In this document: piece after piece, positions 17,144 to 34,625 of the stretch
How positions within the stretch are numbered: the first letter of the stretch is position 1
Layout: the number at the start of each line of letters is the position of its first letter
From: Aurantimonadaceae bacterium
Lineage (GTDB): Bacteria; Pseudomonadota; Alphaproteobacteria; Rhizobiales; Rhizobiaceae
NCBI GenBank assembly: GCA_947474855.1
Contig: CANJKV010000001.1
Span: forward strand, 45,622 to 109,621
Direction of reading: 5' to 3'
DNA: 64,000 nucleotides
Translations under genes and position numbers: made by a program
The notes under the pieces: model-generated
Told to the model about the DNA's origin: nothing
Databases searched by the model: none
The model's input: the letters and a program-made list of their open reading frames with translations, nothing else

Positions 17144-18226
17144 TCAGCTGGCCCGCGGCAGCACCCAGCCATCCACGACGCGCAGCCGCACCGCCGCGCC
17201 GGTCGGCAGGGGAACGGGACTGCGGACCTGCACCGCAGCCGCCTCGCCTGCCCGTCCGAGATCGACCGTCAGGAGATGATGGCCGCCCTCGAAATGCCCA
17301 TCCCGCACCGTGCCGCCGAGCAGAGGCTCGCCCGGCGAGCGGCTCCCGTCGTCGGCGAGCGCGAGGCCCTCGGGCCGAAGGCAGATCCAGCCGGGCCCGC
17401 CCGGGGCCGAGCCGGCCAGCGAGAGCACGCCCTCGGCGAGCCAAACGTCGAGCCGCGCCGGATCGTCCGCCGACGCGCCCAGCACCTCCACGGGCAGGAG
17501 CCGCCGGCTGCCGACGAAGCGCGCGACGGCCGGCGAGGCGGGACGGTGCCAGATGTCCTCCGGCGCCGCGACCTGTTGCAGACGCCCGCCGTCCAGAACC
17601 GCGACGCGGGTCGCGAGCGCCATGGCTTCGGCCTGATCGTGGGTGACGAAGACGAAGGTGGTGCGGGTCTCGGCATGGATGCGCCGGAACTCCGCGGCCA
17701 TGCTCGCGCGCAGGTTCGCGTCGAGGTTGGCGAGCGGCTCGTCGAGGAGGATGAGCCGCGGCCGCATGGCGAGGCTGCGTGCCAGCGCCACGCGCTGACG
17801 CTGGCCGCCGGAAAGTTCGTGCGGCCGCGCGCGCGCCTTGGCGGAGAGACCGACGAGATCCAGCGCTTGGCCGACCCGCGCCGTGATCTCCGATCGGTCG
17901 AGGCCGCGCCCGTGGAGGCCGAAGGACACGTTGCCCTCCACCGTCATGTGCGGCCAGAGCGCATAGGACTGGAACACCATGCCGAGCCCGCGATCCTCGG
18001 GCTCGACGAAGACACCCTCGCCCGCCACGACCCGCTCGCCGAGCGCGATCGTGCCACGGTCCGGGCGCTCCAGCCCGGCAAGAAGGCGAAGGACGGTCGT
18101 CTTTCCGCAGCCCGACGGCCCGAGAAGCGCGAGGAAGGCGCCGTCCTCGACCTCCAGGTCCAGGTCGTCGACGGCGCGCGTTCCGCCGTAGCTCTTGCTC
18201 ACCTGCCGCAGAACGATACCGACCAT
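17144..18226 (-). CDS. ABC transporter ATP-binding protein (FbpC/PotA-like)
   Basis: A 360-residue ATPase that energises the importer. It has Walker A GPSGCGKTT (36-44), Q-loop Q86, signature LSGGQ (138-142), Walker B LILLDEP (158-164), an H-loop in FVFVTHDQAEAMAL, and a C-terminal TOBE-type regulatory domain from about 270. I use the ATG at 18226 (MVGIVLRQVSKSYGG), where homology starts; the frame is open back to 18373 but that part overlaps the inverted-repeat element. It is the first gene of the importer operon. Confidence 0.92.
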   Translation of the reverse strand: MVGIVLRQVSKSYGGTRAVDDLDLEVEDGAFLALLGPSGCGKTTVLRLLAGLERPDRGTIALGERVVAGEGVFVEPEDRGLGMVFQSYALWPHMTVEGNVSFGLHGRGLDRSEITARVGQALDLVGLSAKARARPHELSGGQRQRVALARSLAMRPRLILLDEPLANLDANLRASMAAEFRRIHAETRTTFVFVTHDQAEAMALATRVAVLDGGRLQQVAAPEDIWHRPASPAVARFVGSRRLLPVEVLGASADDPARLDVWLAEGVLSLAGSAPGGPGWICLRPEGLALADDGSRSPGEPLLGGTVRDGHFEGGHHLLTVDLGRAGEAAAVQVRSPVPLPTGAAVRLRVVDGWVLPRAS

Positions 18227-18321
18227 GCGCGCCGTCAAATTGCCACCCGAAGTCCGGCCACTTAGCTCCCGCATGCGACGGCGCTGTGACAAGCGGGGCC
18301 GAATGAGCTCAACGGCAGCCA

Positions 18322-18487
18322 TAGAGCCTGTCATGGACCATGGATAGGTGTTGTGTCGGGTGAGCGAGGTCATCCGGGGCGTCGGCTAGTTGAGCTAAGA
18401 CGGATAGTCTTGGCTCGACGAACCTCCTACCGGGCTGAACCGCGCTGACCCGACACAACACCTATCCATGGTCCATAACAGGCTCTA
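18322..18487. repeat. Small palindromic element with ~45-nt terminal inverted repeats (MITE-like)
   Basis: The first 40 bases (18322-18361) match the reverse complement of the last 40 (18448-18487) with a single mismatch, and a few more bases match inward (to 18366). The ~80-base middle contains its own small hairpin, AAGAC-GGATA-GTCTT flanked by GAGC/GCTC. The outermost bases are TA on the left and TA on the right just outside GAGCCTG/CAGGCTC, consistent with a TA target duplication. The element carries no ORF. It lies in the 375-base gap between the ABC ATPase and the HWE kinase; the rest of that gap (18227-18321 and 18488-18601) shows nothing I can identify. Alternatives are the remnant of an insertion sequence or a long RNA hairpin. 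Confidence 0.75.
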
Positions 18488-18601: not shown

Positions 18602-20299
18602 CTAATGCTTCGACGCCGCAGTAGCGTCCGTTCGCTCGGTCCATCGCGCCGCGAAGGGCTCGGTGCGCAGCCCTTCGCCGGTCACGAACGCCAACGGAAG
18701 GGTCGCGAACAACCCGGAGGCGTCGATGCGTTCGATCCGGCCGAAGAGCTGACGCTCCAGGCACAGGCGCACGAGCCGCAAACCGAAGCCGGACGTCCAC
18801 GGCAGGGGATCCTCGCCGTCCGGCAAGACCCAATGGAATCGGATGTGCTCGCCGGCTTTCTCGACGCGCAGGACGACGGGCTGGCCCCTCGCCTGCCCGT
18901 GCAGGCGCTGGTTGACGGCGAGTTCGTGCAGCGCCTGCGCCAGGGGTACGACGGCTTCGGCGCGCATTCGGATCTCGGGGCCTTCGAAGAGGATGGTGAG
19001 CTGCTCCTGCTCGGCCGTCCTCGCGACGAGTTCCGACAGAGCCGTGGGCGACCATTCGGCGTGCGACAGGAGATCGTGCGCTCTCGACAGGGCCATGATG
19101 CGCCCCGAGGTCTTGGACGCCAGAGCCGCGTTGTCGCCGCTGCTCCTGATGGTGTGCTCGACCACGGAGCGGAGCACGGACAGCGTGTTGCGGACCCGGT
19201 GGTTCAGCTCGGCCAGAAGGAGGTCGCGATGACGGTTCCGCTCGCTGAGGGAGGCATCGGCTTCGCGCAGGGCGGTTGCGACCGTCACGAGCTCGCTGAC
19301 CGTCTGAGGCGTCCTGTCCGCCGGTCTGCCCGTCCCCGTCGAAGCTGCCAGCGTCTGGAGCGCCCGGACGTCGCGCTCCAGGCGGAGCGAATAGAGCCGG
19401 GCGAGAAGGGCCGACGTCGCGAGGACGAGGGCGATCACCGCCGCGAGTGACAGAACGAGCGTGCGGAACGGCGCGTTGAGGACCGAACGGGGCACCGCGA
19501 CCACGACGCGCCAGGGGGTCTCCTCCAGCGTGTCGTAGGCCGTGAAGACCGGCGTCCCATCAAGGGCCTGGACATCGTCGACGACGCCGGACTGGAACTC
19601 GGCCGCTCGTTCGGTGAACGAGGGCGGCGCGAGCTCGCCGATATAGCGCTCCTGGTCCCGGCTCCGCGCCACCACACGATCGCTTCCGTCGAGAACGGTC
19701 GCGGTCCAGGCGGCCGGCAGGGGCGCATTTGCCAGAATGCCGCGGATCACCTCCGGCGCCATCGCCATGTTCAAAGCGTAGCGGACCTCGCCCTCGACCC
19801 TGAGAGGAACGTTGACCAGCACGTATCGTCCTCCCGTCAGGGCGCCCGTGTAGAGGTCGGACACGGTCGGATCGCCCGTCGAGAACACGCGCACGTCCGC
19901 GGTGACGACCGCCGGATCCCTGTTCACGGGCAACGGCGTGCCGGTGGGAACGAGCGTGTTCATCGTTTGGCGATGGTCGCGATCCCGCACCGAGATCATC
20001 GATCCGCGGACCTTGAGGAGCTGCAACGCCTGCTCGCGGAGTGCTCCGAAATCCTGGACGGCAACGTTCGGTGAGGTCGCCAGGGCCTGCAGCGCTGCCT
20101 TCGTCGCTACGAGCTCGCGGTCCAGCTGGCTGCTCACGGTGGCCGCGAGCGCGACGGCGCCTTCCTCGACCCGTCTGTGCTCGGCGACCGCGTACCACCA
20201 GCCGAGACCGAGGCCGAGCAGGAGCTGGGGAACGAGGATCAGCACGGCGAACACCAGAAGGTGCCAGCGGATCGGCAGGGTTCGGAGCGACGGCTTCAT
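18602..20299 (-). CDS. Membrane-bound HWE/HisKA_2-type sensor histidine kinase
   Basis: A 565-residue sensor. A transmembrane helix lies at about 12-38, then a ~240-residue extracytoplasmic sensor of the dCache type (PVFTAYDTLEETPWRVVVAVP marks its end), then a second membrane helix near 280-300. The phosphoacceptor box LLLAELNHRVRNTLSVLRSVV follows. The ATPase part has an N-box-like HELAVNQ and a G-box GFGLRLVRLCLE, but both look degenerate compared with typical HWE kinases (which read HELATNAVKYG). The ATG at 20299 puts the first membrane helix near the N-terminus. The next gene upstream is a hybrid kinase and a lone receiver follows further on, so the three may form one signalling pathway, possibly linked to general stress. 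Confidence 0.85.
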   Translation of the reverse strand: MKPSLRTLPIRWHLLVFAVLILVPQLLLGLGLGWWYAVAEHRRVEEGAVALAATVSSQLDRELVATKAALQALATSPNVAVQDFGALREQALQLLKVRGSMISVRDRDHRQTMNTLVPTGTPLPVNRDPAVVTADVRVFSTGDPTVSDLYTGALTGGRYVLVNVPLRVEGEVRYALNMAMAPEVIRGILANAPLPAAWTATVLDGSDRVVARSRDQERYIGELAPPSFTERAAEFQSGVVDDVQALDGTPVFTAYDTLEETPWRVVVAVPRSVLNAPFRTLVLSLAAVIALVLATSALLARLYSLRLERDVRALQTLAASTGTGRPADRTPQTVSELVTVATALREADASLSERNRHRDLLLAELNHRVRNTLSVLRSVVEHTIRSSGDNAALASKTSGRIMALSRAHDLLSHAEWSPTALSELVARTAEQEQLTILFEGPEIRMRAEAVVPLAQALHELAVNQRLHGQARGQPVVLRVEKAGEHIRFHWVLPDGEDPLPWTSGFGLRLVRLCLERQLFGRIERIDASGLFATLPLAFVTGEGLRTEPFAARWTERTDATAASKH

Positions 20300-20387
20300 C
20301 GTCGCTCGACATCCGCCATCGCGCCGGCCAGGGGCTTCGTCCCCCTCCGATCTCGCCGAACCGTCGCCACCCTGCGCGAGGCCGACC

Positions 20388-23090
20388 TCACGGCCGCTCA
20401 TCCCGGATGACGGCTCCGATCCGGCGGCCGAGATCCTCGACGTTGAACGGCTTCGTCACGACCGACATGCCGTGATGGAGATGGCCGTGATTGAGCACGG
20501 CATTCTCGGCGTAGCCCGTCACGAACAGCACCTTGAGGGTCGGCCTGAGTTCCCGGGCTGCGTCCGCGACCTGCCGTCCGTTCATGCCGTTGGGAAGGCC
20601 GACATCGGTGATCAGGAGGTCGATCCGCGCGTTCGATTGCAGCACCTTCATGCCCGAGGGGCCGTCGACCGCCTCGATCGCCCTGTAGCCGAGGTCTTCC
20701 AGGACGTCGACGACGAGCATGCGCACCAGCGGCTCGTCGTCGATGACCAGCACGGTTTCCCCGTCGCCGCCGGGAACCGCTGGCTGCGCGGCTCCGACGG
20801 ATTCGGCCTCGGCGTCGCCGAGGTGTCGAGGCAGGTAGACGCAGACCATCGTGCCCTGCCCGACTTCCGAATAGATCCGCACCTGACCGCCGGACTGGCG
20901 GGCGAAGCCGTAGATCATCGAGAGGCCGAGGCCGGTACCGACGCCGATGGGTTTGGTGGTGAAGAAGGGCTCCATCGCCCGCTCGACGACGTCGCGCGGC
21001 ATGCCGGTTCCGTTGTCCGAGACGCAGAGCGACACGTACTGGCCGGGCGGCAGGTCGCGCTCGCGCGCCGCCCGCTCGTCGAGCCAACGGTTGCCCGTCT
21101 CAATCGTGAGCCTGCCCCCGTCCGGCATGGCATCGCGGGCGTTGATGCACAGGTTCAGGAGCGCGTTCTCGAGCTGGTTGGGATCGGCGAGAACCGGCCA
21201 GGCGCCGCTGGCGGCGACGACCTCCACCGAGATCGACGGCCCGACCGTGCGGCGGACGAGCTCCTCCATGCCGACCACCAGGGTGTTGACGTTGGTCGGC
21301 TTGGGATCGAGCGTCTGGCGCCGCGAGAACGCGAGGAGGCGGTGCGTCAGGGCAGCGGCGCGGCGCGCGGCGCCCTGCGCGGCGGACAAGTAGCGCTCGA
21401 CATCGGCGCTGCGCCCCTGGGCGATCCTCGTCTCCATCATCTCGAGGCTACCCGAGATCCCGGCCAGGAGATTGTTGAAATCGTGCGCGAGCCCTCCGGT
21501 GAGCTGGCCGACCGCCTCCATCTTCTGGCTCTGGCGCAGCTGCTCCTCGATGCGCTTCTGATCGGTCACGTCGCGGCCGACGATGTGGAACGAGCCGGTC
21601 TCCACCTCGGGGATCGCCGTCCAATCGATCGTTCGGTATGCGCCGTCCCTGCCGCGAACATGGTCGACGAAGTCGGTGACGGTCTCTCCCTTCGACAGGC
21701 GTCGAACGACGTCGGCCGCTTCCGAGTGGTCGGCCGGGTCGACGATATCGGCGAAGGGATGAGCGAGCAGTTCCTCCTCGGTCCAGCCGAGCATGCGGGT
21801 CCAGGCCGGGTTGACCGACTTCATATACCCGTCGAAGCCGGCCGTCCCCATCAGGTCGTTGGTGCTCTGCCAGACGCGGTCACGCTCGCGGGTGCGGCGA
21901 TCAAGCTCCTCCGCCTGTCGCTTCACCCGCGTCACGTCGCGCACGGTGGCGTAGATGCGCCCGTCCCGCGGCACCGCGTTCCAGGAAAGCCAGCGGTAGG
22001 TTCCGTCGCTATGTCGATAACGGTTCTCGAAGGAGAGCTGGGCCTTTCCGTCCGACAACCGGGCGGCGGCCGCGCGGGTCGTGCCCTGGTCGCCGGGATG
22101 AACGAAGTCCAGGAACGGCCGCGATCGCATGTCCTCCTCGCTCCAGCCGAGCGTCTCGGTCCAGGCCGGATTGAGTTCGACGAAGTAGCCGTCGAGATCG
22201 GCGACGCAGAGAAGGTCGTTGGACGCGCTCCAGATCAGGTCGCGCTCGCGGGTCCGCTCCTCGACCTTGGCCTGCAGCGCCGAATTGAGCCGGGCAAGCT
22301 CCGCCGCCTGGCGCTTGTTGTCGTCGATGTCGGTGTTGGTGCCGACCCAGCGCGACACGGCCCCGGCATCGTTTCTCACGGGAATGGCGCGCACGAGGAA
22401 CCACCGGAACAGGCCGTCGTGGCGCCGGATGCGGAACTCCACCTCGTAGGTCTCGCCCGTCGCGAGGCTGCGTGACCAGGCTTCCACGGCCTGCGGCAGG
22501 TCGTCGGCATGCACGATCCGGCCCCACGTCTCGGCACCATTGAGCGTGCCGGGCGCGACGCCGCAATAGGCGTAGACTTGGGCGTTGAACCAATCGAGGT
22601 GGCCGTCGCCCGTTGCCGCCCAGACCTGGTTCGGCACGGCCTGCGCGAAGACGCGGAACTGTTCCTCGCTCCGGCGCAGCTCCGTTTCGGCGGCCTTGCG
22701 CGCGCTCGTGTCGTTGAACAGGAGGGCGACGCGATGGCGCTCCGACGCGTCGACCGGAAAGGCGTAGACGTCGAACCATCGGGCCATGGCGTCCGAGCCG
22801 CTCTCGAAGCGGCTCGACTCGCGCCGACGGTCGATGTCGGCATAGGTATCGACCCAGGCCTGCTCGAGGTTCGGCACGAGCGTCCGGGCGGTGCGCCCCG
22901 TCGCGTCCCTCAGACCTGTTTGTTGCTCGAAGGACGGATTGGTCTCGACGAAGAGGTAGTCGACGGCTCGGCCATCGGCATCGTGGAGCACCTCCAGCAC
23001 GCAGAAGCCGAGATCGGTGTTGTCGAGGATCGCACCGTAACGGGCGGCATCTTCGTCGAGGTGGAGTCCGGTCGGCTCGGGATCGCTCAT
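20388..23090 (-). CDS. Multi-PAS hybrid sensor histidine kinase with C-terminal receiver
   Basis: A 900-residue soluble kinase with no membrane helix. About four PAS domains cover residues 15-510 (for example WSASNDLLCVADLDGYFVELNPAW and WQSTNDLMGTAGFDGYMKSVNPAW, which are internal duplicates). HisKA carries His536 in GLAHDFNNLLAG, the HATPase domain has LENALLNLCINARDAMP and GTGLGLSMIYGF, and the receiver has Asp829 in LLITDVGLPNGMNG. Autophosphorylation would pass phosphate to the attached receiver and perhaps to the lone receiver upstream. It is 88 bases from the HWE kinase gene. The signal is unknown; I see no obvious heme- or flavin-binding cysteine motif. Confidence 0.92.
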   Translation of the reverse strand: MSDPEPTGLHLDEDAARYGAILDNTDLGFCVLEVLHDADGRAVDYLFVETNPSFEQQTGLRDATGRTARTLVPNLEQAWVDTYADIDRRRESSRFESGSDAMARWFDVYAFPVDASERHRVALLFNDTSARKAAETELRRSEEQFRVFAQAVPNQVWAATGDGHLDWFNAQVYAYCGVAPGTLNGAETWGRIVHADDLPQAVEAWSRSLATGETYEVEFRIRRHDGLFRWFLVRAIPVRNDAGAVSRWVGTNTDIDDNKRQAAELARLNSALQAKVEERTRERDLIWSASNDLLCVADLDGYFVELNPAWTETLGWSEEDMRSRPFLDFVHPGDQGTTRAAAARLSDGKAQLSFENRYRHSDGTYRWLSWNAVPRDGRIYATVRDVTRVKRQAEELDRRTRERDRVWQSTNDLMGTAGFDGYMKSVNPAWTRMLGWTEEELLAHPFADIVDPADHSEAADVVRRLSKGETVTDFVDHVRGRDGAYRTIDWTAIPEVETGSFHIVGRDVTDQKRIEEQLRQSQKMEAVGQLTGGLAHDFNNLLAGISGSLEMMETRIAQGRSADVERYLSAAQGAARRAAALTHRLLAFSRRQTLDPKPTNVNTLVVGMEELVRRTVGPSISVEVVAASGAWPVLADPNQLENALLNLCINARDAMPDGGRLTIETGNRWLDERAARERDLPPGQYVSLCVSDNGTGMPRDVVERAMEPFFTTKPIGVGTGLGLSMIYGFARQSGGQVRIYSEVGQGTMVCVYLPRHLGDAEAESVGAAQPAVPGGDGETVLVIDDEPLVRMLVVDVLEDLGYRAIEAVDGPSGMKVLQSNARIDLLITDVGLPNGMNGRQVADAARELRPTLKVLFVTGYAENAVLNHGHLHHGMSVVTKPFNVEDLGRRIGAVIRDERP

Positions 23091-25762: not shown

Positions 25763-27600
25763 GGCGTCGTTCTCCGAACGTCGAAGACGGCAGGCGCGAT
25801 CTCGATGCCCGGCGCTTCGACCGACAGCGAGAAGCGCCCGGGCCGGCGCGCGAGCTCTACGACGAAGGTCCGGTCCGGACCCGGGCGGGCCAGAAGGCGC
25901 TTGGGCGCGCCGAAGCCGAGATCATGGAGCCGGAGCGCGAGCGGCCCCTCGGCAAGGCCTGGCGGACGGTTGCGGATCGCCAGGACCACCACCGCCTTGC
26001 CGCCCGGCTCGGGCGGCGGCGTCATCGAGACGACGCGAAGGGAGGCCGGCGGCAACTCCTCGGCGCCCGGTCCCTCCACGAGGAAGCCGGCGCAGCCGGT
26101 GGTTCCTCCAGGCCCCGTGGTCGCCACGAGCTGGTAGGATCCGCCGCGCGGAAGCGTCACCAACGCCGAGAACCGGCCGGGCGCGATTTCGGCGAAGCCG
26201 CGATCGAAGAGCGCGAGCTCGTCGATCGTCCGTCCCGCAACGCGGATGGTGGACGTCATCGCGTTGGAGATGCCGCCGCCTGCCGCGATGCGATAGGCGA
26301 CGGGACTGCCGGGCGGCAGGAAGAGCGCCATGGGCTCGGGATCGAGAGGCACGAGGATCCCGCTCCCGGCATCCGGCGCCGTGAGCGGGCCGGGAACGTC
26401 CACCCGTCGAAGGAAGGGCGGCGCACCGCCCCCGAGCGGCGCGAGATCGAGGACGCTCACGAGACGGGAATCGGCGTGCGCGAGAACGAGGGAGGTGCCG
26501 GCGCGGGCGCTCGCCGTCACCGGGCCGGGAAGCGGCAAACGCGCTGCGATGCGCGAGAACGTCAGATCGACCACAGCGAGATCGGGGCGCGCCCCGTCGC
26601 TCCAGGCGAGGGCATAGCGGCGATTGCCGGCTTCGCCGAGCGCCAGGCCGGAGGGCGAAAACGGAAGCGGGAGGCGCGCCGCGTCGGCGGGGGCGTCGAG
26701 CCAGCGAAGTCGCAGCTCGGGCGCATCCGGGACGGCCGACACCAGCGCTACCCCATCGGCCGCGACCGCTGGCCCGAGGCTCGCCGGAGGCAGGCGAACG
26801 GGCGCAGACCCGAGATCGCGCAGGATCGCCGCCGACCCGTCGGCAGCCGCGACGATCGCGCCGGCGCCGGACGCCGTCATGCGGATCGGACCGGGACCGA
26901 GGTTTTCGCGGCGCAGGAGCGTGCCGTCTCCATTCAGAAGCGCGATCGATCCGGCCGCGTTTTCGGTGACGATCAGCCCGTCGCCGCCGAGCGCGAGAAG
27001 CCCGCTGGGGTTGCGGAGATTCTCGGCGACGAGCCGACGACCGCCGGCGGGAAGATCGACCGCCTCGATCCGCCCGGCTGCACGATCGAGAAGAAATGCG
27101 CGCGGTACCGTTCCGCCGAGCGCGAAGCCGTCCGCCGCGCCGTCGATTTGCGTGACGCTGATCGTGTTGGCGACGCCGAGGCGATGGGCGAGATCGGTCA
27201 CCACGAGCCGTGCTCGACCGTCTTCGCGAGCGAGGCCGACGAGATAGCGCCCGTCGAGCGGAAAGTCGTCCGGCGACAGCGTTCCCGAGGCGCGCAGCAT
27301 GTGGGCGGCCGCCCCGCAGCTCGGCGCGCCCGGCTCCAGCCGCCGGACGAAGGCGCGCGGCCGGAGCCCTGTCGCCGGCCGACCCGAGGTCGCGTCCGAG
27401 AAGGAGACGGTGACCGATAGCACCTGTCCGGCCATGAGGGACGGATCGCCGGCAGGCCTGCCTGCGGAGAAGGGCTCGATCGTCATGGCCGTTCGCAGGC
27501 CCGGAGCCGACGGGACATCCTGGGCTGCGGCCGTCGCGAGCGCCGCCGCGAGGAGGCCGAGGGCGGCGCCGACGCGGCCGGCCCGGTTCAGGGCTTGCAC
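25759..27600 (-). CDS. Exported beta-propeller-like protein of unknown function
   Basis: A 613-residue protein with a signal peptide (VGAALGLLAAALATAAAQ). The middle (about 120-470) is rich in repeated short strands such as VPRAFLLDRAAGRIEAVDLPAGG, NPSGLLALGGDGLIVTENAAG and PSGLALGEAGNRRYALAW, which read like NHL/YVTN blades. The C-terminal ~130 residues look like an Ig-like domain. I use the GTG at 27600, overlapping the oxidase gene's end by 13 bases; the upstream frame to 27687 is shadow. Its own stop overlaps the SCO start. It may be a structural partner or electron-transfer scaffold of the oxidase. I cannot name a family. Confidence 0.65.
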   Translation of the reverse strand: MQALNRAGRVGAALGLLAAALATAAAQDVPSAPGLRTAMTIEPFSAGRPAGDPSLMAGQVLSVTVSFSDATSGRPATGLRPRAFVRRLEPGAPSCGAAAHMLRASGTLSPDDFPLDGRYLVGLAREDGRARLVVTDLAHRLGVANTISVTQIDGAADGFALGGTVPRAFLLDRAAGRIEAVDLPAGGRRLVAENLRNPSGLLALGGDGLIVTENAAGSIALLNGDGTLLRRENLGPGPIRMTASGAGAIVAAADGSAAILRDLGSAPVRLPPASLGPAVAADGVALVSAVPDAPELRLRWLDAPADAARLPLPFSPSGLALGEAGNRRYALAWSDGARPDLAVVDLTFSRIAARLPLPGPVTASARAGTSLVLAHADSRLVSVLDLAPLGGGAPPFLRRVDVPGPLTAPDAGSGILVPLDPEPMALFLPPGSPVAYRIAAGGGISNAMTSTIRVAGRTIDELALFDRGFAEIAPGRFSALVTLPRGGSYQLVATTGPGGTTGCAGFLVEGPGAEELPPASLRVVSMTPPPEPGGKAVVVLAIRNRPPGLAEGPLALRLHDLGFGAPKRLLARPGPDRTFVVELARRPGRFSLSVEAPGIEIAPAVFDVRRTTP

Positions 27601-30600
27601 GGCGTCGCCTCCCCCGGAGCGTTCGGCGAAACCGCGAGATAGCCCCACACGCCGGCCGCGAAGATGTGCTGCGGCCCGTCGCGCCACAGGTATTCCCCCG
27701 AAGCCTGCGGCGCGCAGCCGAAGGCCGTCATCGCCTTGCCGGGACCGAGCAGCGCCGAATGCCCGGATCCGAAGCCGGGCATGAGGTCGTCATAGCCGAA
27801 GCCCGTCGACACGAAGGCCCGTTGGCGCGCCCGTCCCTGCGGCAGGGCGATGCGCACGGCGATCTCCTCCTGCGGCCGCGCCGCGATCTCGGGGCTGGCG
27901 AGCGGCCGCGTCTGCGGCGAGGCGAAGCGCCGGGCGAGGAAGTCGGGCGCGAACTCGACGGCGTTGAGGTCGTCCCCGTCGCCGCGATCGGGATAGCCGC
28001 GCGTGCCGAAGGCCGCGTCGGCTCCCCCCGTTCCGGCGATGCGCAGCCGGAACGGCGCGGAGCGATAATCGACACCCTGCTCGCCGCGATCGTAGGAGTC
28101 GTCGCAGACGACGCAGTCCGGAAGCGGCCGCCCGCTCCAGCCGGGCAGCGCGGCCACCGCGGAGGCGCGACGCCAGAGGTTGAGGCCGTCCTGCCAGAGA
28201 AGCACCCGCTCGCGCAGGATCGCCTCCGGCACGTGCGTCGCGTCTCCGGGATCGCCGACGACCGTGACGGCGGGCACCGGCACGAGCGCTGCCGGGGCGT
28301 GGCGCCAGGTGAAGCGCTCCGCCGAGCTTCCGGTCGGCGTCGATCCCTTCGGCTCGACCACCAGCGTTCCCGACAAGCCGTGGACGCCGTGCGAGACGAT
28401 GTCGCCGAGGGAGCGGATCGGCAGAGCGCCGAAGGCGTAGGGAATGCTCACGAAGACGCGGTCCGCCCGTCCGGGTTCGGCGAAGAAGGCGTCGAGCGCC
28501 CGCTGCACGAAACCCGTCTGCTCTTCGGGGATGTCGTAGACGCAAAGAACCAGACCGAAGACGGTGATCTGCTTCTGCGTGGCGCATCCGTTCTCCTCGC
28601 TGCTGCGCAGGACGACTCTCATCGCCTCCCCCGCGCCGAGCCCGGCCGCGGCCCGCAGCGCGGCGTCGAGGCCGGAGCCCGAACCGGGGTCGAGAAGTTG
28701 GTCCAGCCGGTTCTCGCTCGCCCAGGCGAAGCCGGCGAAATAGCGCGTGACGGTCCAGAACGGCCGCGACGAGCCGCCCGGCGGCACGGCGCGGGCCTCG
28801 TTGACGCCGACGGCCTGGAGTCCGCCGGGCCTCAGCATCGGGGTGGTCAGCGGAAGCGACAAGGCCACGTGCCGCGAAGGCACGAGTTCGAAGGAACCGC
28901 CCGTCTGCCGCCGGTCCACGTTGAGGGGAACGATCGGCGGCATCAGCGCGTCGCCCGGCTGATCCCAGATCGCTCCGGTCGCGCTCAACGCGTTGATCAG
29001 CAGCAGGTCGGCGCAGTCGCCCGCTGCCACGCGGAGGACGAACGGCATGCCGAAGATCGTGGCGCGCTTAGCGGCCTGCGTCGCCGCGTCGTCGCCCGGC
29101 CGGATCGCCGCGTCGAGCTTGCGGCGGATGATGGCGCGGATCGCGCGGGCATCGAGTCCCGCGAGCGTCGCGTCTTGGCGGTTGGCGAAGGCCTCGTAGA
29201 GCCCCATGCCGGACCCGCCGTCGTAGTAGGGGGCGAGATTCAGGGGAGCCCTGTCGAGGCCAAGGTCGGCGAGCGACAGGGGCACGAGCATCAATCCGTC
29301 GGGATCGAACAGCCCGTTCTGGCGCGGCCCCGCACCATAGATCGTGCCGGGAACGGCGAAGTCGTCCTTGGGAAGCACCTCGCCCGCCCGCACCGCGGCC
29401 GCGATCACCGGAACGCGGTCACCATCGAGGGGACACCACGCCTTGAGGCTCGACGTTTCGGCCGGCACGGTCGGTGCGATCGTCGGCGTGGCTGGAACCG
29501 GCGCGCCGCTCGTGGTCGCCCTCCACTGCCGGCGCAGGACCGGAAGCGGCACGAGGCGCCGTCCCACCGCGCTCCCGGCCGCCACCGGATCGAGGCAGCG
29601 CTCGAACTCGTCGCCCGTTCTGGGCGGCGTCGACAGGCACGTCGCCGCGTCGGCCTCGCCCGGCCCGTCATAGGTGCGGATCAGGCCCCAGGCCCCGTTC
29701 CATAGGGCGTCGGTCGAGCCGAAGTGATAGAGGAGATCGAGCGAAGGCCGGCCGTCCGGAACGCTCGCGACGAGGCTGCTGGCGCCTCTACCGTCGTTCG
29801 AGCCGTTCGACCCGATGGCCGGCGCGAAGGATGCCCCCTGGTTGTTGACGCCGCTGGCAACGAGCGAGCCGAACTCGAAATGCTCGGAAATGCCGACCTC
29901 GTGCGCGGCGACGAAGCCGAGGGGGTTGTCGCAGCCTGCGACGAAGGTCTCCATGTCGTTCCAGAACGGCTGGTTCTCGTAGCCGCCGACCGACCAGCCG
30001 GGGAACTCGCCGGGCCGTCCGCTCCGGCCGAAAGGCGATTCGAGGCAGGCGGTGCTGCGCGAGCGCGGACCGCTCCGCTCCGACTCGTGGCGCTCCGCCG
30101 GAAAGGGCTGATCGACGTTGCGGCGGATGGTGCGCCCCTCGACCGTGAAGATGTGCTGGACCTCCTGCGCACCCTGGATCAGGCGGACGACGAGGCGCTC
30201 GCCGGACAGGGCCTCCAGGACGGGCGTGCAGGGATCGCCGTGGAGGTCGGAGCGGAAGATGTTGGCCATGTCGCCCGCCTCGCCGCCGCGCTGGCGCACG
30301 ATGCTGCGGTTGTCGCTCGGCGAGAGGCTCGGCGCGCCGGCCGGGCCGCAGGGGCTCGCGGCGAAGGGTGGCGGCAGGCCGTTCCGGTCGCCTCCCACGC
30401 GAAGCGGGATCGGCTCGCCCCGATAGTTGACGAGGTAGGGATCGTGGTGATCGGCCGAGATCGCCTCGGGACGTGCCGGCGGCGCGATCGGGCGGCCGTG
30501 CTCGCGCCGGATTTCGCGCCAGCGCTCGGCGAGTTCGGTGACGCGGGCTTCGCTCGGCGACAGCGGGGTACCCCGCAGGGCCAGATCGAGGGCAGGCGCC

Positions 30601-33600
30601 GCCTCGCCGTTGGCGACGTCGTCCGGCGAGGGGGACGTCGCAGGATCGAGGGCCTCGGCCACCAGCCGGTCGAGACCGCGAAGATCGCCGGCCGGTTGCG
30701 GCACCGGCAGGGGCGCGTTGGTCTCGCGCCTGCCGTCGTAGAGTAGCGCGAAGTCGGCGATGGCGAGGGCATATTCGCGGGCATCGACCTGCAGGGGATC
30801 GCCGGCGACCTGCTTGGCCGGGTCGCCGAGCCTCGGCCGGTCCCCCGGCTGCTCCAGCGCGTTGTCCTTGTAGGTGAAGACGTTTGCACGCGCGCCGACG
30901 AGGCGTTCGGACTCTTCGGTAGCGAGCGTCGGCACCGGGGGCGACGCGCCCTGCGCGGTCGCCGGGCCGGCGACGCAGAGCTCGGGCGGCGCGGCCTCCT
31001 CGCCCGGTCGCGGCAGCGGGCAGACGACGTGCGTCGACGGCTCGATCAGGAGCGCGGAGTAGAACCCGTGCTGCTGGATGTTGGAGGGTCCGAAGTGATC
31101 GTGGGTGAACACGGTACGCAAGGTGCGGTCGGCGACCTGCGCTCCCTCGCCCGCGCGCCCGACGAGGCCCTCGTAGCTGAGGATCGGGTCGGCGAACCAG
31201 CGCTGCACGGTGGTCTGGAAATACTGGATGTTCTCCGGCAGGAACCGGTCCAGCTTGTGGACCGTCTCGATCATCCGGGCGGCGCATTGCGCGTCGGTGC
31301 GCTCGGCGATGTCGTCGATGGAGGACGGATCCTCCCCGTCCCGCTTCGTCGCCCGGCCGCGCGAGTGGCAGATCCGGGCCAGGACTTCCTGCGGCGAGAA
31401 GGTGCCATCCTCGTAGTTGAAGCCGTTGCCCGAGCCGTCCGACGAGGTGACGTCGAACTTCACGAGGTGGATATGCTGGCCGATCGTGTCGGTCGGAACC
31501 TTCATCTGGAAGTCGTCGAGCTTCAGCGCCTTGGCCGTTTCGTTCGTGTGCTGGACCTCGATGCACTCTCCGGAAAAGGCGCGGAAGTAGAAGGGTTCGG
31601 CGGTGGCGGTGGAGCGCCCCTTGGTGGCACCGGCCTGCGAAGACAGGACGTTGATCCGTCCCTGCGGATCGTGCCAGCCGGCGCGGTTGACCACGAGATC
31701 GACGTCGACTGCCGAGACCTTGAAGCGGCGGAAACCCAGAAGCCCCGGATCGGGCACCATCCTGACCTCGGCCGCGCGCAGCGGATCGGCGATCTCGGCG
31801 AAGGCTTGCGGATCTCGGGCCCAGGAACCCGTCGCGGCGTCGAAGCGGCGGAAGGGACTGCCTGCCATCACGCTCGGCGCGCCGCACGGATCGGCGAAGG
31901 GAGCACCGGGCGCGGGCGGCGCGCCGTTCACCGGAAAGAAGGCGCGGGTCGGCGGCATCGCGGGCGGGCTCGGGCGGGGCCGCAGAGGCGCAGAGCCGGC
32001 AGCCGCGACGGGCGCGGGCATCGCTGCCAAAACGCCGGCGGTCGGGACGTCGTAGGCACCCGCGTTGGCGTCGGGCGCGGCCACGACCGCGCCGTGGGCA
32101 TCGCGCAGCTTCACCGCCGCACCGTCGTGGTGGAAGCGCATGGCGGATCGTTCGAGGCGGGTGCCGGCATGGGGCAGCAGTTCCAGCCGCAGCTCGCCGA
32201 ACTCCGACGTCATGTCCCCGAGCGCCAGCATGCGCTCGATCGGCACCACGGGGTCTTCGCCCGCCTCGAAGCGCTCGCGCTGCTCGTCGGTAGCCGCGCC
32301 CGGGAGGGACCGCCCCGCCGTCACGACGTGGCGCGGAAGCCCGCCGTCGAGGCGCGGCCGGCCGAGCGCCGCGGCGAGGTTCGGCTCCAGCGCGTTCGCC
32401 GCCTCGGCCATGTCGAGCGGCGGCTGCGGCGTGCGATGGCCGGGCACGCCGGGAATATAGAACGGATAGCCCGGCATGGCCGTGCCGGGACCCTCGGTGT
32501 CGGCATAGGTCGGCAGGAGCGGTAGGCCGTTCGCGGGCAGCGGGACGAGCCCGGGGATTGGCGTTCCCAAATCCTGACGTGCGGCGCCGGGCTCGCGCCA
32601 TTCGCCCTGCGGGCCGACGCTGCCTTCCCGCCGCGGCGTCGTCGCGCCCGCCAGGATCTCGGCCTGCGTCTGCTTGCCGCGCGGCTCGACGGAAAGCGAC
32701 GGCTCGACCTGCCCGTCCGGCAGGAGGCGCGTGCCGTCCTCCAGAACGTCGTGGACGCGCCAGAGCGCCCACATGCCTTGCGCGAAGTGCGGGTAGAGGT
32801 GGCAATGGAAGATCGCGTCGCCCGGCGTGCGGTTGCGATTGCCCGTGCCGAGCGATGCCCAGTAGCCCTTCGGTTCGGGGAGGCTGCCGTCCGGCTGGCG
32901 CGGCGCGAAGCGGTCGAGCCCGCCCTGGTAGATCCTGTAGGTCAGACCCTGCTGCGGGGCGATGGTCTGGCTGTCGAGATAGGCCCCCCGGCCGGAGTCG
33001 TTGCCCGCGAACCATTGATGGCTGTGCAGGTGGAAGACGTGGGTTTCCTTGCCCGCGTGGAGGTTGCGAAAGACCACCTTGTCGTTGAGGTAGGAGTGGT
33101 GGACGTTCGAGGGATCGTCGGGAAAGACTTCGAGAAGCGCCGGGTCGCCGTTCGCCCAGCTTTCCAGGAAGAACTCCTCGTATAGGCATTCGGCGCACTG
33201 TCCGGCTGGGCCGATGCCCAGCCGGTTGGCCAGCACGGCCGCGCCGACCCCGCTTGAGCCGTAGTTGATCGCGAAACCGTCCCGCACGCCGGCGAGCTGA
33301 CCGTAGCGGCCGAGCGCCTTCAGGTCGTCGGCGTAGAAGGTCTTCAGCTCGTCGTGGAAGATGACGGTGAACTCGCGAAAGGGTGCGGCCGCTTCGCGCG
33401 CCAGGCGCCGTTCGCGCAAGCTCGCCTCCGTCCGGGCCACGGGAAGCGGCTCGGCCTCAGTCTCCGGAACGACGATGGCGTTGAGGTCGGAATGAACGAT
33501 CTCAAAGACCGGCGCGGTCTCGCCGGCGTCGATGCAGGGCCGGAGCATGGCGAGAACCGGAACGTCCTGCACGCCGCAGTCGAAGCCTCGGCCGGCCCGC

Positions 33601-34625
33601 GCCGCGTCGCGGCTGTCTGGCACAGCCGCGAAGTAGTCAACCGTGCCTTGCCGCGCGTGGCGCACCGGCCCTTCCGATTTTGGCCAGACGCGATCGAAGG
33701 CGGCGGGCGAGACCTGGCTGCGGAAGGCCTGCGCACCGGCCCGCTCGACGATGAGCGCGCCGAAGAGGCCATGGATCAGCGAGCCGCCGTCCGCCTCTCC
33801 GCCGGCCGGCGCGGCATAGCTCGACACGAGATGCGTGCCTTCGGTCGGCAGGCGCCAGCGGCAGGTGAAGCTTGCGCCGGGTGCGACCGCGCCGGTGCCG
33901 ACGCAGGCCGGATGGATCTCGCTCCCGACAGGCACCGGTTCGAGGCCGGGAATGACGAAGGACAGGTTGCGCGTCAGCGGCCAATCCGTCCCGTAGCCGT
34001 TGGCGGCCACGGCCTCGTCGCCGTCCGCCTCGACCGTCCGACACTGCTCCGCGAAGGCGGCGCCCACCTCGTCACGCAGGGCGACGGAGCCTGCGCCCGC
34101 GTCCTCGCAGAAGCCCAGTCCAGGCTCGCCGTCGGTTGCGGAAGGCGGCAGCGCGGTGCTTGTCAGCCCCGGCTGGTCGGGCCGCAGGAGGTTGGTGACC
34201 GTCACTTCGAGCGTGTCGCCGACATTGGCGCGCAGGACCAGCGGACGCGGACGCAAGCAGTCGCGAAGCCGGACCTCGCCGGGTTCGAGCGGCCCGGTTC
34301 CGCCTTCGGCGCCGGTCATCTCGCCGCAGGCCTCAGCGTCGGGCCCCTCGCCGCTTCCGGCATCGAGGGCCGACACGTTGCGCTTGAGCGCGAAGATCAT
34401 GCCGTAGGGATTGAAGGAGCCGAAGCGGTTGTAGACGATGAGGTGATCGAGGGCGACGACGTCGGCGTGGACGATGCGGCCCACCTCCTGAGCACCCGCC
34501 TCGCCGGCCGAAAGGCCGCCGCTCGCCGTGAGCAGGAGCGCCGAGAGCGCCATGGCGATCCGCGGCGGCCGGGCCGAACCCGATCGGCACCGCTGCGACG
34601 GAGCGAGACGAACAACGTCGAGCAT
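27588..34625 (-). CDS. Giant exported multicopper oxidase-like protein (2,345 residues)
   Basis: One open frame encodes 2,345 residues, far longer than usual multicopper oxidases (~500) and MnxG or ceruloplasmin (~1,000-1,200). A signal peptide (PRIAMALSALLLTASGGLSAGEAGA) is present; the ATG is at 34625, with an alternative at 34553. Copper-ligand motifs include VFHLHSHQW (~530), FHCHLYPHFAQGMW (~608, with type 1 Cys, His and axial Met spacing), GQHIHLVKFDV (~1052) and DHFGPSNIQQHG (~1175). Domain-end signatures recur at ~283 (HGLFGALIVER), ~1180 (HGFYSALLIEP) and ~2077 (HGVHGLSGTLVVEP), suggesting repeated cupredoxin modules. It heads an operon with propeller, SCO and cytochrome genes. Resemblance in size and context to MofA-type Mn(II) oxidases makes metal oxidation a reasonable inference, not a proof. 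Confidence 0.85.
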   Translation of the reverse strand: MLDVVRLAPSQRCRSGSARPPRIAMALSALLLTASGGLSAGEAGAQEVGRIVHADVVALDHLIVYNRFGSFNPYGMIFALKRNVSALDAGSGEGPDAEACGEMTGAEGGTGPLEPGEVRLRDCLRPRPLVLRANVGDTLEVTVTNLLRPDQPGLTSTALPPSATDGEPGLGFCEDAGAGSVALRDEVGAAFAEQCRTVEADGDEAVAANGYGTDWPLTRNLSFVIPGLEPVPVGSEIHPACVGTGAVAPGASFTCRWRLPTEGTHLVSSYAAPAGGEADGGSLIHGLFGALIVERAGAQAFRSQVSPAAFDRVWPKSEGPVRHARQGTVDYFAAVPDSRDAARAGRGFDCGVQDVPVLAMLRPCIDAGETAPVFEIVHSDLNAIVVPETEAEPLPVARTEASLRERRLAREAAAPFREFTVIFHDELKTFYADDLKALGRYGQLAGVRDGFAINYGSSGVGAAVLANRLGIGPAGQCAECLYEEFFLESWANGDPALLEVFPDDPSNVHHSYLNDKVVFRNLHAGKETHVFHLHSHQWFAGNDSGRGAYLDSQTIAPQQGLTYRIYQGGLDRFAPRQPDGSLPEPKGYWASLGTGNRNRTPGDAIFHCHLYPHFAQGMWALWRVHDVLEDGTRLLPDGQVEPSLSVEPRGKQTQAEILAGATTPRREGSVGPQGEWREPGAARQDLGTPIPGLVPLPANGLPLLPTYADTEGPGTAMPGYPFYIPGVPGHRTPQPPLDMAEAANALEPNLAAALGRPRLDGGLPRHVVTAGRSLPGAATDEQRERFEAGEDPVVPIERMLALGDMTSEFGELRLELLPHAGTRLERSAMRFHHDGAAVKLRDAHGAVVAAPDANAGAYDVPTAGVLAAMPAPVAAAGSAPLRPRPSPPAMPPTRAFFPVNGAPPAPGAPFADPCGAPSVMAGSPFRRFDAATGSWARDPQAFAEIADPLRAAEVRMVPDPGLLGFRRFKVSAVDVDLVVNRAGWHDPQGRINVLSSQAGATKGRSTATAEPFYFRAFSGECIEVQHTNETAKALKLDDFQMKVPTDTIGQHIHLVKFDVTSSDGSGNGFNYEDGTFSPQEVLARICHSRGRATKRDGEDPSSIDDIAERTDAQCAARMIETVHKLDRFLPENIQYFQTTVQRWFADPILSYEGLVGRAGEGAQVADRTLRTVFTHDHFGPSNIQQHGFYSALLIEPSTHVVCPLPRPGEEAAPPELCVAGPATAQGASPPVPTLATEESERLVGARANVFTYKDNALEQPGDRPRLGDPAKQVAGDPLQVDAREYALAIADFALLYDGRRETNAPLPVPQPAGDLRGLDRLVAEALDPATSPSPDDVANGEAAPALDLALRGTPLSPSEARVTELAERWREIRREHGRPIAPPARPEAISADHHDPYLVNYRGEPIPLRVGGDRNGLPPPFAASPCGPAGAPSLSPSDNRSIVRQRGGEAGDMANIFRSDLHGDPCTPVLEALSGERLVVRLIQGAQEVQHIFTVEGRTIRRNVDQPFPAERHESERSGPRSRSTACLESPFGRSGRPGEFPGWSVGGYENQPFWNDMETFVAGCDNPLGFVAAHEVGISEHFEFGSLVASGVNNQGASFAPAIGSNGSNDGRGASSLVASVPDGRPSLDLLYHFGSTDALWNGAWGLIRTYDGPGEADAATCLSTPPRTGDEFERCLDPVAAGSAVGRRLVPLPVLRRQWRATTSGAPVPATPTIAPTVPAETSSLKAWCPLDGDRVPVIAAAVRAGEVLPKDDFAVPGTIYGAGPRQNGLFDPDGLMLVPLSLADLGLDRAPLNLAPYYDGGSGMGLYEAFANRQDATLAGLDARAIRAIIRRKLDAAIRPGDDAATQAAKRATIFGMPFVLRVAAGDCADLLLINALSATGAIWDQPGDALMPPIVPLNVDRRQTGGSFELVPSRHVALSLPLTTPMLRPGGLQAVGVNEARAVPPGGSSRPFWTVTRYFAGFAWASENRLDQLLDPGSGSGLDAALRAAAGLGAGEAMRVVLRSSEENGCATQKQITVFGLVLCVYDIPEEQTGFVQRALDAFFAEPGRADRVFVSIPYAFGALPIRSLGDIVSHGVHGLSGTLVVEPKGSTPTGSSAERFTWRHAPAALVPVPAVTVVGDPGDATHVPEAILRERVLLWQDGLNLWRRASAVAALPGWSGRPLPDCVVCDDSYDRGEQGVDYRSAPFRLRIAGTGGADAAFGTRGYPDRGDGDDLNAVEFAPDFLARRFASPQTRPLASPEIAARPQEEIAVRIALPQGRARQRAFVSTGFGYDDLMPGFGSGHSALLGPGKAMTAFGCAPQASGEYLWRDGPQHIFAAGVWGYLAVSPNAPGEATPCKP

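Follow-up and report, generated by a model that had tools for sequence, protein, structure and literature searches.

What is the near-perfect palindrome that stands, with TA at either end, between the genes for an ABC transporter ATPase and a sensor histidine kinase in the genome of an Aurantimonadaceae bacterium, and how did it come to be there? The palindrome lies in a stretch of 64,000 nucleotides that was analysed as a whole (the window), and an earlier note made from its letters took it for a miniature transposable element (MITE), mobilised in trans by a TA-targeting transposase, most naturally of the IS630/mariner type. The comparisons described below indicate that the palindrome is a non-autonomous MITE, shortened from the 271-273-bp form that prevails in its family, and that, very probably, its mobilisation in trans would be the work of an 867-bp insertion sequence (IS) with an IS5-family transposase.

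The 166-bp palindrome with its TA flanks was confirmed at 18322-18487 (Table 1). Its inverted repeats, previously put at about 45 nt, are real and slightly longer than that: the two arms (18322-18370 and 18439-18487) measure 49 nt each, are complementary at 46/49 positions (94%) and are separated by a spacer of 68 nt; their outer 40 nt pair throughout except at arm position 11 (C/T). Folded as single-stranded DNA, the element reaches -67.7 kcal/mol, whereas shuffled sequences average -23.8 (z -15.6), and none of 200 dinucleotide shuffles folds as well; as RNA, the energy of either strand is about -121 to -125 kcal/mol, with z near -18. The internal hairpin that had been claimed was located within the spacer, and the element indeed encodes no ORF of its own, neither a transposase nor any other protein. 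The only long frame to enter it from the ABC side is an artificial N-terminal extension of the ABC ATPase ORF; the orthologous ATPase starts at the position of 18229. Within the element no tRNA or Rfam match, no sigma-70 promoter and no terminator, including a terminator-like T-run, was found.

Table 1. Coordinates of the element, its parts and the flanking genes in the window
Feature	Position	Strand	Basis
ABC transporter ATP-binding protein (2-aminoethylphosphonate/polyamine-type)	17144..18229	-	Profile matches, sister alignment
MITE in its short form (166 bp with both TA)	18322..18487	+	Sequence, fold, copies; absent in sister species
Left TA of target-site duplication	18322..18323	.	Single TA at aligned A. 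aurantiaca empty site
Left terminal inverted repeat, 33 nt family TIR	18322..18354	+	Copy alignment, IS comparison
Junction at which long-form hairpin 1 (about 106 bp) is missing	18354..18355	.	Alignments and long-form fold
Internal hairpin (hairpin 2), 13-bp stem, 5-nt loop	18389..18419	+	Fold; compensatory changes in relatives
Right terminal inverted repeat, outer 17 nt matching the IS TIR at 16/17	18455..18487	-	Copy alignment, IS comparison
Right TA of target-site duplication	18486..18487	.	Single TA at the same aligned A. aurantiaca empty site
HWE-family sensor histidine kinase	18602..20401	-	Profile matches, sister search

A Pfam scan of the 32 distinct ORFs of the window found no transposase or recombinase, so that the description of the palindrome as the only clear mobile-like element there holds as far as tested, and the window search gave no tRNA or Rfam match. 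An ORF of about 2345 aa in the same window (27588-34625, minus strand) starts with what resembles a signal peptide and has stretches reminiscent of multicopper oxidases (HSHQWF and HCHLYPH), but has no Pfam match at E 1e-6.

The palindrome belongs to a family with many copies in its own genome, for which the assembly containing the window (5.48 Mb, 415 contigs) was searched. The family comprises 18-23 insertions and a 22-bp remnant; eight copies are complete, and in 19 others a contig ends in the element, so that only one flank is present. Four pairs among these 19 are the left and right flanks of one insertion each, since they are neighbours in the genome of a sister species. Most copies are long forms of 271-273 bp, in which a TIR stem carries two internal hairpins. 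Two forms of 196-197 bp lack one arm and the loop of hairpin 2, and the short form in the window lacks about 106 bp, which is exactly hairpin 1, cut at the hairpin base where the long-form fold has its three-way junction. The family TIR is 33 nt long, and the window copy pairs 32 of these positions. Identity among the long forms is 97-99%, a sign of recent spread, except for one rearranged copy (C68:6260-6530, equal to L033:1261-1531). In that copy the hairpin-1 loop is inverted between intact arms (identity 52/55 when reversed versus 36/61 unreversed), which suggests recombination or template switching inside the hairpin, if it is not an artefact of assembly. The remnant, on contig C309, was also considered as the single end of an autonomous element and rejected, being 22 bp beside ordinary genes. 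Diverged members of the family occur in three related genomes (G281, on contigs C1, C12, C33, C40 and C46; G083, on C11; and G079). The family is new, of a well-known kind; a search of the open-access literature found no MITE family described in this genus.

If the element is mobile, relatives should have sites without it, as the earlier note had proposed to look for, and such sites were found for the window copy and others. The sister species, found by searching with the histidine kinase, is Antarcticirhabdus aurantiaca R10, with 93% identity at the protein level. At its orthologous locus both flanks align with 92% identity, and one TA stands in place of the element; most simply, the window copy was inserted after the split from A. 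aurantiaca. For six other complete copies, the joined flanks each match one unbroken A. aurantiaca stretch, with exactly one CTAG at two of the six sites and divergence or small indels at the remainder, and four further uninterrupted sister sites were reconstructed from the paired contig ends. A. aurantiaca itself holds two copies of the 867-bp IS and one diverged 168-bp member of the MITE family, with no close copy of the MITE. Because the sister sites are empty and only this diverged member is present, the burst of the MITE most likely followed the split. These results also bear on the idea of a chance or locus-specific palindrome, for example a dyad that regulates the ABC-transporter operon. 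The position of the element speaks for this idea, since it lies 92 bp upstream of the ATPase start (18229) on the minus strand; on its other side, the stop codon of the histidine kinase (18602) is 114 bp away. The probability of a chance or locus-specific palindrome is negligible, given a sequence that is multi-copy, absent at the orthologous site and folded as strongly as the z-score above indicates.

The flanks define the target as CTAG and the duplication as TA. A C precedes the TA in 29 of 33 MITE flanks and in 6 of 7 IS flanks, and a G follows it in every complete copy. A duplication of the full 4-bp CTAG was considered and rejected: three insertions (the window copy, the copy on C242 and the IS on C145) have A or T as the left outer base and G as the right one, so only TA is duplicated. 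CTAG is strongly depleted in the window: base composition predicts about 178 sites, and there are 15.

Which enzyme could move such an element? In a scan of the genome for ends within one mismatch of TAGAGCCTGTTATG, 43 sites were found against 0 in the control, all belonging to the MITE family or to the 867-bp IS and to no other sequence in the assembly; a search of the genome contigs for the exact TIR pattern gave no match. The IS is present on contigs C30 and C145, has the TIR TAGAGGCTGTTATGGAC and encodes between its ends a single intact transposase gene of 271 aa, which matches the NCBIfam model transpos_IS5_3 (NF033580) with 196 bits (cut-off 110) as well as PF01609 and PF13340. It inserts at CTAG too, with TA flanks, and homologous elements of 864-867 bp with the same boundaries occur in plasmids of Roseomonas, Methylobacterium and Sphingobium. 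The outer ends of the MITE (GAGCCTGTTATGGACCATGG) are identical to those of the IS at 16 of 17 positions, with a consistent difference in this genome at position 6 (C versus G); in the left TIR of the window copy this family-wide difference is joined by the C/T at position 11, which is private to that arm. In the relative G281, most of five family members have the IS end exactly (TAGAGGCTGTTATGGAC, 17/17). The sharing is limited to the outer 17 bp and the interiors are unrelated, and the MITE as a simple deletion derivative of the IS was rejected on that ground. Two other IS5-type genes (on C4 and C26) were rejected as mobilisers, since their ends, AGAG(C/T)CCGTCCGGAAA and AGAGCCCGTTTCA, diverge from the MITE beyond the first bases. 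The MITE-bearing relatives G281 and G083 have no close homologue of the transposase (best 39%), and there the family may depend on another IS5-type enzyme, or the IS may have been lost.

An IS630/mariner-type (DDE_3) transposase, the candidate named originally, also duplicates TA, and a TA duplication with a CTAG target would suit IS630 as well. The two DDE_3 matches in the genome look broken or partial, since one contains an in-frame TAG and the other spans half of the domain, and a MITE end, even with one mismatch allowed, occurs on neither of their contigs. The matching ends flank the IS5-family gene instead, leaving the IS630/mariner proposal unsupported and this type of enzyme a very unlikely mobiliser. 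The reading as a MITE itself is strongly supported: the element is short and lacks a transposase gene, has TIRs, a TA duplication and empty sites in the sister species, is multi-copy and has its ends in common with an autonomous element. The outcome that the earlier note had set against its own proposal, one copy shared by all relatives at one position with no related IS, clearly does not apply.

At 10 of 32 MITE flanks, corresponding to nine insertions (L029, L030/L046, L033, L038, L039, L047, L048, L049 and L051), an in-frame TAG stands behind a long GC3-rich frame, compared with 2 of 52 background CTAG sites; Fisher's p against this background is about 0.0008 for 10/32 and about 0.0002 for 9/23, values to be read with the small background counts and heuristic gene calls in mind. 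The sister counterparts of the genes at L038, L047, L048 and L051 have their TAG stop at the corresponding position. At L030/L046, two convergent genes end on one CTAG palindrome. Since the first base of the element after the TA is G, the TAG stop is rebuilt upon insertion, and a CTAG target rebuilt as TAG accounts, at the level of sequence, for how an element of this kind can multiply in a dense, GC-rich genome and leave its genes unbroken. The excess at stop codons may reflect target choice or the survival of harmless insertions. One could go further and suppose a family specialised for CTAG at TAG stops, which would rebuild the stop with its own first base and supply gene 3' ends with a conserved three-way junction while the proteins stay unaltered, the structure being preserved through an effect on mRNA 3' ends or through the insertion mechanism; we regard this extension as doubtful.

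The structure itself is conserved. Among the 104 pairs of a consensus fold for the MITE copies of this genome and of G281, 29 show compensatory changes; 97.6% of cells are paired, and the covariation score is reached by none of 500 shuffles. A model of the right half has matches, some of them weak, in 11 of the 349 genomes from the bacterial family. The conserved pairing of stems and hairpins between species is therefore real. Together with the many copies that adjoin stop codons, it could be taken to mean that the family has a function as a structured nucleic acid, an RNA hairpin or a cruciform, and is not merely selfish, with selection for folding acting on its hairpins. Several observations make this unlikely. 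Among non-Watson-Crick changes, A-C occurs in 9 pairs and G-U in 8 on the folded strand (own count), and this near-equality means that no strand is favoured as RNA. The inverted hairpin-1 loop points to arm-to-arm template switching, which yields paired changes without selection; moreover, the sister sites are empty and a terminator-like T-run is absent. We infer that the compensatory changes come mainly from arm-to-arm correction at the DNA level, an explanation preferred because of the inverted loop as a sign of template switching, the similar frequencies of G-U and A-C, and TIR position 19, where eight copies have four different pairs. Covariation in palindromic repeats thus calls for caution as proof of RNA function, the inverted loop pointing to correction between arms during replication. 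A long RNA hairpin between the two operons, also suggested earlier, is physically possible but not conserved at the locus, the sister species being without the element.

Taken as a non-autonomous MITE with an IS5-family partner, the element would have spread as follows. The transposase would bind in trans the 17-bp ends common to IS and MITE, cut at the TA boundary and insert the MITE into CTAG. Hairpin 1 was most likely lost from the window copy by polymerase slippage or template switching at the hairpin base, which could have happened before or after its insertion. MITE and IS form a testable pair: the genome has both the recently amplified element and an intact candidate transposase, and the sister species has the empty sites.

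Prokaryotic MITEs are short, non-coding and foldable, with long TIRs, a target duplication and many copies mainly outside coding sequence (PMC10969869). The present family has these general traits in common with ERIC, Correia elements, MITEAba12 and QMITEs, but differs from them as a separate, GC-rich sequence family that is not in Rfam, folds into a three-way junction, inserts at TAG stops and has no match in the plasmid collection with either the short or the long query. As for the partner IS, its TA flanks and size agree with the TA-duplicating IS427 subgroup, to which both it and IS711 presumably belong. IS711/IS6501 of Brucella is likewise about 0.85 kb long with an IS5-family DDE transposase. 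IS711 is reported to duplicate TA at a YTAR target and is thought to need a -1 frameshift (PMC2266754); the CTAG target and TA duplication of the partner IS fit this pattern, whereas its transposase is a single open frame. Brucella, of the same bacterial order, also has palindromic repeats, Bru-RS1 and Bru-RS2, associated with the TA-duplicating IS711 (PMC2266754), and these, likened here by description only, offer a lead for the MITE and its 867-bp partner.
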